Part shown: positions 18,828 to 33,306 of the stretch, one piece after another
Layout of the letters: each line of letters opens with the position of its first letter
How positions within the stretch are numbered: the first letter of the stretch is position 1
Assembly (NCBI GenBank): GCA_022706825.1
Contig: JAKJBU010000010.1
Coordinates: 1-35,681 of the forward strand
Source: Bacillota bacterium
GTDB lineage: Bacteria > Bacillota > Clostridia > Lutisporales > Lutisporaceae
DNA: 35,681 nt
Direction of reading: 5' to 3'
Position numbers and translations under genes: made by a program
The notes under the pieces: model-generated
What the model saw: the letters and a program-made list of their open reading frames with translations, nothing else
The model's database searches: none
Told to the model about the DNA's origin: nothing

Positions 18828-21232
18828 TATTTGACACTTCCCTTCACAGAAATCCGAGGAAGCTGAGCATCGGCATCACTCAATTCTATTTTCAGCTTAA
18901 GCATGCTGCTGCCGTCCAAATATTTTCCAAGGAGTTCTCCATGTATTTCAAAGTCCCTGTAGTCTCCCTCATCCCATTCCTTCTTTTCATTATCCCATAT
19001 ATACTGCTTAACACGCTGGGTATCTCCTACCGTATACTGTATATTAATACTCTCAGCTCTGATGTCGTCAATTTTGTAATGTACTTCAAAGGAACCCCGT
19101 CCATAGAACGTCTTTCCGTAATCATCATAATTCCCTGCATCCAAATTATTGACAACCTCAGGCTTCAGAAAGCCAAGGGGGTATTCCACGTTTTTTCCGT
19201 CCCTGAATCTCAGATTCACCTTGGAGGTAATGAAGGCCTTTTCATACTTTCTGGTCTCCCTGCCGTTTACCAGCAGATCTTCGGCTACAGGGGTGCTGCT
19301 CCAGGCAATGAGCTGTGCCTCATAGCCCTGATACGCCTCATACATAAGGCTATGCTCCAGCACATGCCTTTTTTGAAGATTCAGCCTGAATTCCGTCATC
19401 TCTTCCGGAGTCAGCCTGGTATTTCGATTGACCCTATTAGATCCGGAATAGGGATCCTTGTATATTGCATTTATCAGTTCATATCTTTGTCCGAAATAAC
19501 TGCTGGGTTTTACATCTATCTGCTTTGTTTCCCCATTTTTTACAGGCCCTACACCGGCATATTGAGTCGGAGTAATTATATAGCATTCGTCCAGGTCAAA
19601 GCCTGAACTGTTGATTATTGTTCCTGTAAAAGAACCCTTTGCATAATTCAGATTACTCTCCAGCCTGCCGGAAAACTCTTTACCGGTCTCCATATCAAGG
19701 GTCTTCATGCTCCATACGCCGCTTTTGTAAAATTCCAGCACCGTCCTGGGAGCCAGGGTAATCTTTGAATCTATTCTTCCTGAAGTATTTTCATTGTCTA
19801 TAGGCCCTCTGTAGTAATTATCGTTCATTCTGAGAGGCTTAACCTTAAAATCTCCGGCTGCTTCAATCCTTATATTATCTTTATTGGGAGTGAAGACCCC
19901 TGCATAAACCTTGGGGCTTATAATTCCGCTGTTATCAATATCCACCAGTGATATGACATTTGTGACGGGTCCGGTCAGTCTGGTTCCCGCACCGGTAAGA
20001 TATACGACTCCCGAGAAGGCTATCGAAAGCACAGGTACGGTCAACCACATCAGCTCCCGTCTATCCATGCGCTTCAGTATAAAATAGCTTGTGGGGGCAG
20101 CCAGCAATATATATGCAATATATATGAACACCATATGGAAGGGTTTTGGCTGAGGCAGCTCCGGTATATTCCTGAGCGCATTATCTATGGCATAAAAATC
20201 ATCTCTGACTATAATTCTTTTTTGATATATGTCACTGAAATAGTACTGCGGCATTATGCCCACAATCAAGTTATCCGCAAAGGCGCTGTTCCCGACCCAT
20301 GTGGAAAGGGGCTCCATTCCGAAGTCAAAGGAGGCTACTCCCACCACGCCTTTGCCTTTCTCGATCTTCTGCAGCAATACAAAATCACCGTCTTTAATCC
20401 CTGGTGTGCTGTTATTCATGGTTATATCCGATACGCTTATGCTCATTGCCGGCCCGGTCTTGCTCCCTGCCATCTCATTCAGGCTTGAGGTTGTGAGTGT
20501 ACTCACTTCTCCTACCTCTCCCGTAATGAAATCATCCTTAAAGACTGCCAGGGTCTTATTATGGGAAGGCCCTGTTCCTATAATAAGCATTCCGCCCTCC
20601 GACACCCACCTCTTCAAAGTCTCATACTGTGCTGTACTGAGCCTTGAAGTGTCATAATTGTTTATGACTATTACATTGAATGCCTTCAACACATCCATGT
20701 CCTCCGGAAAACTATCCTCATCCAGCTTTACGTTTTTTGTGCTTATATTGCCGAAGCTCTTCATGGACACCTTATTTATATATTTAACACTGTCAAAATC
20801 GTCACTTAGTATCCCTATGGCATAGGTATCCGCACTTAATCCCGGATCTATCCTGAAGGATTTTTTACTTATAATGTTATCCCCTTCTGCAAGATTTACA
20901 TTAATCTTGGTGTTGAATACATTCATAGGAACATTCATCAGGAACTTTTTGACGGAATTCCTGGGCAGATTTACGTTTATCGCATATATTGTAATACTGC
21001 CGTATTGATTGGGCATTTCAACCTGCAGCTCACCGTTTATATCCCGAAGGCTGTTTTCTATTTCAAAATATACCGGTGCAGCAAAGCCAATTTTATAGAA
21101 TTTATCAAAGCCCACCTTCATATCGATTCTTATTTCATCCTTTGCCTCAGCCTGCAAGAGCTGCATCGCAGGCCGCCCAATAATCAAAGCAAGCATTAGG
21201 ATGAATGCAGCTGCTCTTAATACTTTTTTCAA
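18827..21232 (-). CDS. Exported GATase-like membrane protein, first gene of the MoxR/VWA/ABC operon
   Basis: An 801-residue protein with a signal or anchor (LRAAAFILMLALIIGRPAMQLL). A beta-rich domain follows to about 130, then a Rossmann-like GATase-fold segment (FNVIVINNYDTSRLSTAQ .. LKRWVSEGGMLIIGTGPS, about 185-223) lacking an obvious catalytic Cys. Two central helices (about 366-386, 394-414) and a large beta-rich C-terminal half with a Tyr-rich final domain complete it. GATase-like folds in exported proteins next to ABC-2 transporters recall the GldG and DUF4350 types, but no clear family match can be made by eye. The start is TTG at 21232 with GGGGG upstream. A candidate TATAAT (21289-21294, minus strand) lies upstream without a convincing -35. 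The structured element 21321-21913 ends 89 bp upstream. Confidence 0.75.
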   Translation of the reverse strand: MKKVLRAAAFILMLALIIGRPAMQLLQAEAKDEIRIDMKVGFDKFYKIGFAAPVYFEIENSLRDINGELQVEMPNQYGSITIYAINVNLPRNSVKKFLMNVPMNVFNTKINVNLAEGDNIISKKSFRIDPGLSADTYAIGILSDDFDSVKYINKVSMKSFGNISTKNVKLDEDSFPEDMDVLKAFNVIVINNYDTSRLSTAQYETLKRWVSEGGMLIIGTGPSHNKTLAVFKDDFITGEVGEVSTLTTSSLNEMAGSKTGPAMSISVSDITMNNSTPGIKDGDFVLLQKIEKGKGVVGVASFDFGMEPLSTWVGNSAFADNLIVGIMPQYYFSDIYQKRIIVRDDFYAIDNALRNIPELPQPKPFHMVFIYIAYILLAAPTSYFILKRMDRRELMWLTVPVLSIAFSGVVYLTGAGTRLTGPVTNVISLVDIDNSGIISPKVYAGVFTPNKDNIRIEAAGDFKVKPLRMNDNYYRGPIDNENTSGRIDSKITLAPRTVLEFYKSGVWSMKTLDMETGKEFSGRLESNLNYAKGSFTGTIINSSGFDLDECYIITPTQYAGVGPVKNGETKQIDVKPSSYFGQRYELINAIYKDPYSGSNRVNRNTRLTPEEMTEFRLNLQKRHVLEHSLMYEAYQGYEAQLIAWSSTPVAEDLLVNGRETRKYEKAFITSKVNLRFRDGKNVEYPLGFLKPEVVNNLDAGNYDDYGKTFYGRGSFEVHYKIDDIRAESINIQYTVGDTQRVKQYIWDNEKKEWDEGDYRDFEIHGELLGKYLDGSSMLKLKIELSDADAQLPRISVKGSVK

Positions 21233-21348
21233 TGCTTAACCCCCGTATCAAGTCAATTTTTCTTTCATTATGAACAGTCATACCCATTATTATAGACGCA
21301 ATGCATAGGGCAAATGTTTCGCAGTATATGAATAATGCGACACAACTA

Positions 21349-21604
21349 TAAGTTTGCATAACCCTCCGCAAGAGACAGTATAGTATATCGAGGCACACGG
21401 ATTATGATTTTGACAGGGCTACTAATATGCCTTTGGAAAAGTTCTGACGGTGTCAAAAGGCCCTCCATGGCCCGAGACACCTAAGCCGACCTCCTGTCGG
21501 CTTCACGAACTTTTTACCAAAGCCATATCAGAGGCCTGTTGACAAAATACATAAAAGTGTGCCCTGCTATACTATACAAGCTCTTGCTTGGTTATGCAAC
21601 TTAC
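21349..21604. repeat. Giant imperfect inverted repeat (256 nt)
   Basis: Successive segments of the left half pair in order with the right half. GCATAACC 21356-21363 pairs with 21590-21597. GCAAGAG 21368-21374 pairs with 21581-21587. GTATAGTATA 21378-21387 pairs with 21568-21577. GGCACAC 21392-21398 pairs with 21557-21563. ATTTTG 21407-21412 pairs with 21543-21548. ACAGG 21413-21417 pairs with 21535-21539. ATATG and CTTTGG 21425-21436 pair with 21517-21528. AAAAGTTC 21437-21444 pairs with 21507-21514. The apex holds two hairpins: GGTGTC/GACACC (21449-21481) and GCCGAC/GTCGGC (21485-21501). Symmetric internal loops interrupt the stem. No ORF runs through it. Confidence 0.85.
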
Positions 21605-21623
21605 AGAATATGCCTTGTATATC

Positions 21624-21905
21624 AAGAAAATGCAAATACCGACGTGGGGAAGCTATCTTCGACGAAACCTTCCACCTGACCTCGGAACGGGAATACCCCA
21701 GAGGAAAAGCTAGTCTCACGACGCTTTTCCTTCGCTAGGGAACCCTATGGTTCCCTTCGACGGATGCAAGCATCCTGAGCACCCTCCTTTATCGGCAGGG
21801 GGCTTCTCCCCCTTGCATCCCCCGCTTTGGAAGGTGAGGAGAACATACTTCCCCTACAGTCGGAGTACTTTACAAACCTGTAGGTATATATTGCGCAATT
21901 TTCTT
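21624..21905. ncRNA. Candidate multibranched structured RNA domain (unidentified)
   Basis: Nested long-range pairings enclose a row of hairpins. GAAAA 21626-21630 pairs with TTTTC 21899-21903. ATACC 21636-21640 pairs with GGTAT 21883-21887. GGGGAAG 21646-21652 pairs with CTTCCCC 21848-21854. ACCTTCC 21667-21673 pairs with GGAAGGT 21829-21835. Inside are perfect hairpins GGAAAAGC/GCTTTTCC (21703-21730), AGGGAACC/GGTTCCCT (21737-21756), GGATGC/GCATCC (21762-21775) and GGGGG/CCCCC (21798-21812). A further hairpin CTACAG/CTGTAG (21854-21883) competes with the outer stems. Strand and transcription are unknown. I could not match it to tmRNA, 6S, RNase P, SRP or a group II intron. Confidence 0.5.
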
Positions 21906-21915
21906 CATATGCGAA

Positions 21916-21957
21916 TTTAAATATAATTAAGTCTTGTCTGACTTAATTATATTTAAA
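21916..21957. repeat. Perfect 18-bp AT-rich inverted repeat at a gene end
   Basis: Arms 21916-21933 and 21940-21957 are perfectly complementary with a 6-nt loop. The hairpin spans the stop codon (21943-21945) and last codons of the minus-strand gene 21943-22515. No T-run follows on either strand, so it is an atypical terminator if it is one. It may instead protect the 3' end of the transcript or mark an element boundary. Confidence 0.75.
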
Positions 21958-22515
21958 GCTGATTTTCGTATTTTTGAGTCTTATATATCTTTTCAGCCTG
22001 CCAGAAACCTCCTGCCTGGCAAAAAAGAATAATGAAAATGCCTCCCATAAGAATACCCAACCGCCGACGGTAAGCCCCTCTATTAAGATAACGGTAAAAA
22101 AACCGGGCTCTGCTTTCTGTCCTGACAAGTATCCCACCGATAAGAAAGCAACAGCCATTACAATATAGAAAAATATTTTTTGCCTGATTTGCATTAACTC
22201 TTTTCTGATGAAATGAACGCTATAGTCAAAATAATTCTTTATCCCCACTCTTGAAAGTTTTTCTTTTTCCTTGTCATATTGGTCTTCAGGCAGGTAAAAC
22301 ATCAGTTCCAGAGGAAATTCAAGGGGAATATCGGAATCGCATTCTTCCAGAAAACTTATAAGTTCCGGATCCACATCCCTTCTCTTGATCGGAGAAGGAT
22401 CCCAGCCGTTGAAAATCTCATTGTAATCGATTAATGAGACCTCAATAATATACGCATTTGTATCCGGATTCATCTTATATATCTGTTTCAGATAGTTCTT
22501 CTTTTTCTTAAACAT
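21943..22515 (-). CDS. Unknown protein with two C-terminal membrane helices
   Basis: A 190-residue protein I cannot name. The N-terminal half is soluble and acidic, with a motif-like block (YIIEVSLIDYNEIFNGWDPSPIKRRDVDPELISFLEECDSDIPLEFP split over 22-69). I believe this recurs in uncharacterised clostridial proteins, where it precedes ..FYLPEDQYDKEKEKLS. Two hydrophobic helices follow (about 114-130 IFFYIVMAVAFLSVGYL; 138-160). It ends in a basic tail. The ATG at 22515 follows ACGGAGGTT. Divergent from the RocB-type gene and followed by the structured element, so it is probably monocistronic. Confidence 0.7.
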   Translation of the reverse strand: MFKKKKNYLKQIYKMNPDTNAYIIEVSLIDYNEIFNGWDPSPIKRRDVDPELISFLEECDSDIPLEFPLELMFYLPEDQYDKEKEKLSRVGIKNYFDYSVHFIRKELMQIRQKIFFYIVMAVAFLSVGYLSGQKAEPGFFTVILIEGLTVGGWVFLWEAFSLFFFARQEVSGRLKRYIRLKNTKISFKYN

Positions 22516-27230: not shown

Positions 27231-27422
27231 ATGCGTATTAGAAGAGTAATGCGACGGGGACATGGGGACGCGGGGACACGGGGACGCGGGGACATGGGGA
27301 CGTTTCCCCTGTCCCACTTCCAGTGGGACACGCGAAACGTCCCCGTGTCCCCGGGGGAAACGTCCCCATGTCCCCGGGAGAAACGTCCCCGTGTCCTCAC
27401 GTCGCATTATTCATATTATGCC
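27231..27422. repeat. GC-rich palindromic intergenic element, copy C
   Basis: Fills most of the 320-bp divergent gap 27199-27518. From 27253 to 27419 it is identical by eye to copy D (33136-33302), 167 bp with no indels. Order: left end (GAAGAGTAATGCGAC), about five GGGGACRYG modules, nested hairpin, two GTCCCC/GGGG relay segments, right end GTCGCATTATTCATATTATG. The remaining 96 bp before the YigZ gene has a TATAAT (27478-27483) but no clear -35. Confidence 0.88.
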
Positions 27423-33114: not shown

Positions 33115-33306
33115 TACGTATTCGAAGAATAATGAGACGGGGACATGGGGACGCGGGGACACGGGGACGCGGGGACATGGGGACGTTTCCCCTGTCCCAC
33201 TTCCAGTGGGACACGCGAAACGTCCCCGTGTCCCCGGGGGAAACGTCCCCATGTCCCCGGGAGAAACGTCCCCGTGTCCTCACGTCGCATTATTCATATT
33301 ATACGG
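33115..33306. repeat. GC-rich palindromic intergenic element, copy D
   Basis: Fills most of the 313-bp divergent gap 33096-33408. It is identical to copy C over 167 bp (33136-33302 here), with differences only in the outer left end (GAAGAATAATGAGAC instead of GAAGAGTAATGCGAC). The remaining 100 bp before the plus-strand membrane gene holds no convincing promoter. Confidence 0.88.

Follow-up and report, generated by a model that had tools for sequence, protein, structure and literature searches.

A TwoAYGGAY RNA core within a dispersed, MITE-like hairpin element of Clostridia

The hairpin at positions 21349-21604 of the window studied here, a stretch of 35,681 nucleotides from a Lutisporaceae genome (Bacillota; assembly GCA_022706825.1, contig JAKJBU010000010.1), belongs to a family of mobile elements that carry a TwoAYGGAY RNA. 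The RNA family and the MITE-like repeat are each ordinary; the combination, a TwoAYGGAY RNA that travels in a mobile element family, is new. In a partial literature search, we found no description of TwoAYGGAY as mobile or as part of dispersed elements with common termini. Our overall account has a MITE-like snap-back element whose minus strand would encode the TwoAYGGAY RNA, together with inferred binding of CsrA, an RNA-binding global regulator, and transposition in trans, and we give it a probability of about 70%.

Results

The hairpin and its dispersed copies

In the computed fold, 21349-21604 is a single rod from the first to the last base, with symmetric internal loops and a two-hairpin apex, just as a preliminary description of this DNA had proposed. 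Its MFE of -118.9 kcal/mol compares with a mean of -58.1 kcal/mol (sd 4.6) for shuffled sequences (z -13.2), and not one of 200 dinucleotide shuffles folded as well. The preliminary description had also called the interval free of open reading frames; no convincing ORF runs across the hairpin, but mechanical ORFs of up to 83 aa do overlap it. As for the reported interval itself, 21349-21604 captures the body of the repeat (element H), which the fold, the shuffles and nine near-full-length copies define as an imperfect inverted repeat over its whole length, with no strand assigned to it. The true ends lie further out, at ~21318 on the left and, for the composite described below, in a paired right terminus at 21890-21915.

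A search for homologues in the window's own genome and its relatives returned many dispersed copies of the 21349-21604 repeat, which goes beyond the preliminary description and rules out a unique structural RNA confined to the window locus. From the own genome (G000; 1.8 Mb in 180 contigs, 71% complete), similarity searching recovered nine near-full-length copies, the window copy included; the other eight are 90-96% identical, and several truncated or interrupted copies occur besides. Further copies are present in three genomes of the same genus (G001, G002, G005), and more distant ones (~73% identity) in three others of the same family (G010, G016, G021). Those relatives that bear a name, Go_SlDig_bin_83 and AS22ysBPME_45 among them, are MAGs of uncultured Clostridia. 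The flanks of the dispersed H copies are mutually unrelated, and comparison of the element with plasmids and phages gave zero matches. At the window locus, both genes flanking the element lie on the minus strand, and the sole Pfam family among the flanking proteins is peptidase M20, further to the right.

Common termini and composite layout

Alignment of copies with their flanks shows that in many of them both ends are TTGCRYAWWAGAAGAAKAATGCGACATA, a sequence that is itself quasi-palindromic (CGCAT-9 nt-ATGCG), and that similarity and pairing extend past 21349-21604. The pattern AAGAATAATGCGACATA has 59 matches with at most 3 mismatches in the own genome, compared with 9 for a reversed control. 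In the window, the left terminus, the quasi-palindromic TTCGCAGTATATGAATAATGCGACACAA, occupies 21318-21345 on the plus strand, as defined by the consensus of many element ends and by the point, ~21318, at which homology to the orthologous intergenic region of a related genome (G004) stops. Its inverted counterpart, the minus-strand TTCGCATATGAAGAAAATTGCGCAAT at 21890-21915, was placed from aligned element ends and forms the right terminus of a composite that extends from ~21318 to ~21915.

This composite consists of H joined to a second hairpin element, M. Arm A of M (21605-21699) adjoins H and arm C lies at 21824-21906, both without assigned strand; M is a separate repeat that occurs standalone elsewhere, for instance by itself with both termini at L053 1265-1489. 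Nested in M is module B (21713-21823, minus strand), a dispersed repeat of ~111 bp with ~11 standalone copies in the own genome and >20 in G006. Module B makes up most of a cmscan match to the Rfam family Clostridiales-2 (RF02937; 21750-21830, minus strand, 77.6 bits, E 2.4e-17), and what Rfam lists as an "sRNA" at 21713-21830 on the minus strand of the window may represent a mobile element instead of a gene for an sRNA. Directly to the right of the composite, at 21916-21958, we noted an AT-rich inverted repeat, AAATATAATTAAGTC...GACTTAATTATATTT, which is present as a single arm in G004.

The common termini bound several types of element, namely H (~295 bp), K (~294 bp), M (~224 bp), a GGGGACGTTTC type of 116-170 bp and a GGTAACGGGTAACACG type, and all types with these termini fold as hairpins over their whole length or nearly so. 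Tandem composites of H+K (605-609 bp), M+K (497 bp) and H+M were found. The window itself holds two nearly identical copies of the GGGGACGTTTC-type hairpin element, at ~27246-27420 and 33124-33301, with the terminus GTCGCATTATTC, which is of the same kind as that of the composite.

Evidence for mobility

Joined flanks of ten elements were compared with sister genomes, and for three of the ten (L032, L006 and L007) an empty orthologous site was found. The L032 site is filled in G002 and empty in the own genome, and the L006 site is filled in the own genome and empty in G002. The third (L007 1168-1777; L192) is filled in the own genome, and G002 keeps one complete 20-bp terminus there, where CGCAT occurs as a direct repeat across the junction; this "empty" site is compatible both with insertion into a terminus that was already present and with a near-precise slipped deletion of the hairpin. 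At two other sites the interior differs between sister species: identical site and flanks hold H+M in the own genome and H in G001 (L008 / L022), and the L049 site holds K in the own genome and H/M pieces in G002 (G002:C29:49462-50117). Such differences suggest that elements inserted more than once into the same termini or that the interior was exchanged. The window locus offers no clean empty site, since the element is absent from G004, where homology ends and an unrelated insert is present, and G005 carries part of H plus M.

Because the copies are dispersed, have unrelated flanks, share inverted termini and occupy sites that a sister species has without the element, we conclude with high confidence that the element is non-autonomous and MITE-like, with a snap-back hairpin body. 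No consistent target-site duplication was seen at the examined element sites. Nor was a transposase recognised beside any terminus examined, which is weak evidence of absence for an own genome that is 71% complete. RAYT genes of the relatives have no clear terminus inside 1.5 kb flanks, and RAYT/IS200 was rejected as the mobiliser: Y1 genes exist in these genomes, unlinked to the termini. An autonomous IS was also sought among ORFs less than 2.6 kb from strong termini, whose translations, judged by eye, look like those of ordinary neighbouring genes.

Identity of the core

At the default cut-off, an Rfam scan of the window reports Clostridiales-2 alone and no TwoAYGGAY, and the preliminary description had been unable to match the hairpin to any known RNA class. 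The core at 21402-21556 (minus strand) nevertheless has a class. In cmscan's E-value mode, the window copy matches RF01731 at 21401-21554 on the minus strand with 37.9 bits (E 2.2e-4) over model positions 1-168 of 168, compared with a gathering score of 43 bits for this family. Sister copies that are 92-96% identical to the window copy exceed 43 bits (L004 48.1, L008 45.8, L002 45.7). So do remote homologues found with R1, a covariance model built from our own alignment: 85.8 (L290), 59.8 (L291), 57.4 (L304), 53.3 (L288), 52.1 (L303) and 46.2 bits (L287). The window copy scores 179.4 bits with R1. Given the scores of the sister copies and remote homologues above the cut-off, the core is almost certainly a TwoAYGGAY RNA, and the window copy is, by these scores, a divergent member slightly below the Rfam cut-off.

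TwoAYGGAY was introduced, without an assigned function, as a motif that is probably an RNA and not cis-regulatory, with a distribution over human gut sequences, Gammaproteobacteria and Clostridiales (Weinberg 2010; PMC2864571). Gardner and Eldai (2014; PMC4333381) proposed from its loops, as a testable hypothesis, that it binds CsrA. A partial literature search found no experimental test of TwoAYGGAY-CsrA binding.

Matches to R1, nearly all of full length, occur in 23 of 391 Clostridia genomes, most of which carry several copies, and these genomes belong to five families (f1, f21, f22, f26, f49). Where copies were compared within a genome, similarity ends abruptly and leaves a common unit of ~250-300 nt. 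The remote copies that we looked at are intergenic, several of them between convergent genes, and their neighbouring genes differ; a consistent orientation relative to the flanking genes was looked for, and the orientation is mixed. K elements match R1 with E about 1e-17 and are by this match divergent members of the core family. M and G elements have the common termini yet do not match the core model. Paired TwoAYGGAY cores in opposite orientation, ~100-150 bp apart, were observed in G021, G003 and G012 (L036 1240-1658, L025 1521-1949, L302 3774-4185 and L320 101-559), an arrangement that resembles the tandem composites found in the genus of the window.

Covariation and apical loops

Two alignments were used for the covariation check on homologues that the preliminary description had put forward, and both bear out the pairing. 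A1, aligned with MAFFT, holds 35 cores in minus-strand orientation and was not fitted to a model; R1 was built from it. In A1, compensatory change is seen at 15 of the 53 pairs, pairing holds in 98.3% of cells compared with 93.8% after shuffling, and the covariation score was reached by none of 500 shuffles. A3 comprises 70 homologues fitted to the covariance model, and its figures therefore lean towards the structure: compensatory change appears in 51 of 53 pairs, with 1099 cells changed on both sides compared with 305 after shuffling, and a covariation of 0.734 compared with 0.199 for shuffled alignments and no more than 0.109 when partners are slid. These alignments show, at the level of sequence, that the structure has been kept by compensatory change over at least five Clostridia families.

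The two apical hairpins lie at 21459-21472, with the hexaloop AUGGAG (21463-21468), and at 21485-21501, with the pentaloop AGGAG (21491-21495), both on the minus strand and both closed by a C-G pair. They appear in the fold of every copy; A.GGA is found in all 35 rows of A1, and the AGGA and A.GGA loop letters are invariant there. Hairpin 1, the one with the pentaloop, is closed by C-G in all 69 A3 rows with letters at these positions, and its commonest loops, written with the closing pair, are CAGGACG, CACGGATG, CATGGACG and CATGGAGG. Across A3, A(N)GGA is present in both loops of 60 of the 70 sequences, in one loop of 8 and in neither loop of 2. Compared with AYGGAY, the window loops keep A(N)GGA but not the last Y, the first Y being absent too from the pentaloop; many homologues carry strict ACGGAC, AUGGAC or ACGGAU loops. 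In K elements, hairpin 1 is altered to GUGAG/GUGAU.

The functional strand

A G-U pair on one strand is an A-C mismatch on the other, and the ratio of the two therefore tells which strand stays paired as RNA. Read on the minus (GGA) strand, G-U outnumbers A-C by 60 to 6 in A1 and by 129 to 23 in A3, counts that include related sequences. For 55 pairs picked by independent folds of both strands, the figures are 37 and 13, again not independent events. The minus strand also folds more stably in 62 of the 70 sequences, by a mean of 7.4 kcal/mol. The wobble asymmetry favours a minus-strand RNA over a strand-neutral DNA hairpin or gene conversion from arm to arm. The preliminary description had left the choice between a folded RNA and a hairpin of DNA that an enzyme recognises. 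The first is strongly supported for the core, by covariation in 51 of 53 pairs and the strand-specific excess of G-U over A-C; the second may apply to the mobile element that surrounds it.

Within 21200-22100 we saw neither a convincing intrinsic terminator nor, ahead of the RNA, a convincing promoter of the sigma-70 type. The minus-strand transcript would come from read-through out of neighbouring genes or from a promoter that escaped our search. As both flanking genes lie on the minus strand here, we infer read-through from the upstream gene as the simplest source.

CsrA in motif-bearing genomes

The own genome encodes csrA (G000:C157, E 1.7e-22), and the gene was found in 15 of the 23 motif-bearing genomes. 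It was not detected in the other 8, four of which are 92-96% complete (G001, G010, G089, G185). A simple rule by which the motif occurs only with csrA is thus unsupported, and csrA is only weakly and not significantly enriched in genomes with the motif (Fisher p 0.17 for all genomes, 0.065 for near-complete ones). In most of the motif-bearing genomes without detected csrA the core loops are intact. They are degenerate in G185, which fits relaxed constraint, and CGA loops occur in G006 too, where csrA is present.

Discussion

Together, our data point to a candidate regulatory RNA that has apparently been spread around Clostridia genomes by transposition. On the basis of the A(N)GGA loop motif, the C-G closing pair, the twin sites and the presence of csrA in the own genome, CsrA is, by analogy, on balance a probable ligand of the twin loops. 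According to this model, the two loops of the minus-strand RNA would bind one CsrA dimer, and the RNA would either titrate the bound CsrA or regulate its host transcript in cis, and a transposase acting in trans would spread copies of the element. A tentative extension is that the element family spreads a CsrA-sponge RNA. Each insertion would then add a twin CsrA site to the transcriptome, copy number would set how much of this global regulator is free, and selection acting on the element itself would keep the loops even after loss of csrA.

The main rival, which we consider unlikely, is that the structure serves the movement of the element, with the A(N)GGA hairpins, either in RNA or in extruded single-stranded DNA, recognised by a transposase or a host transposition factor, and that CsrA is irrelevant. 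This would accommodate the intact loops in genomes without detected csrA, the whole-length hairpin form of every type with these termini, and of course the mobility of the elements. However, a DNA palindrome would be strand-symmetric, whereas the G-U excess and the more stable folding of the minus strand speak for a single-stranded RNA. The loop motif and the C-G pair that closes it match the CsrA/RsmE site, and M and G elements, which lack a match to the core model, show that the core is not needed for moving with these ends.

According to a second and strongly disfavoured explanation, the elements are plain MITEs without an RNA function, the palindrome being a by-product of their origin and its complementarity being kept by gene conversion between the arms or by hairpin repair. 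Homogenisation of the arms would indeed mimic compensatory change without selection, and the lack of a visible promoter is in keeping with this idea, but it explains neither the strand asymmetry nor the retention of a two-hairpin apex, and, across the five families, positions in the unpaired loops rank with the best conserved while the stems change. Less probable still is a transcription terminator, or an mRNA 3'-end or processing element, spread because intergenic regions tolerate such elements: the remote copies examined are intergenic and several lie between convergent genes, but nothing resembling a terminator with a T run was found, copies lie in either orientation to the genes beside them, and such a function does not require invariant GGA loops.

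The leading reading is a TwoAYGGAY RNA with CsrA as candidate ligand, carried by a mobile element. If the 2014 proposal is true, TwoAYGGAY would be one of the first RNAs outside Gammaproteobacteria that sequester CsrA. The present data extend its structure and loops to many more copies and indicate the functional strand, and they make two questions testable, namely CsrA binding and the distribution of a regulatory RNA by transposons. Natural controls are at hand in the genomes that apparently lack csrA and in copies whose loops are altered (GUGAG, CGA) or lost.

Comparison with known systems

With REP/BIME sequences and their RAYT (Y1) transposases, the elements share quasi-palindromic terminal units in inverted pairs; they differ in that RAYT and IS200-like Y1 genes occur but no clear terminus adjoins them. 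Like bacterial MITEs and other non-autonomous palindromic repeats, they are gene-less, 120-600 bp long, bounded by inverted termini, dispersed in intergenic copies, and present or absent in close relatives. Unlike these, they form tandem composites, exchange interiors at one locus and contain a conserved RNA domain, and neither a target-site duplication nor a partner transposase was found.

The CsrA-sequestering sRNAs CsrB, CsrC and RsmX/Y/Z, described from Gammaproteobacteria (PMC4333381), likewise have paired hairpins with A(N)GGA loops and C-G closing pairs, and csrA is present in the own genome here. In contrast to them, the RNA has two sites rather than many, shows no promoter or terminator of its own, and is multi-copy, mobile and also present in genomes without detected csrA. 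The closest known relative is TwoAYGGAY itself (RF01731, clan CL00106), with the same two apical A(Y)GGA-loop hairpins on one long stem, a full-length match to the model and a range that, on record, already included Clostridiales. What sets the present RNA apart are the AUGGAG and AGGAG loops in place of strict AYGGAY, the continuation of pairing through much longer arms, and its position in dispersed mobile elements with common termini.
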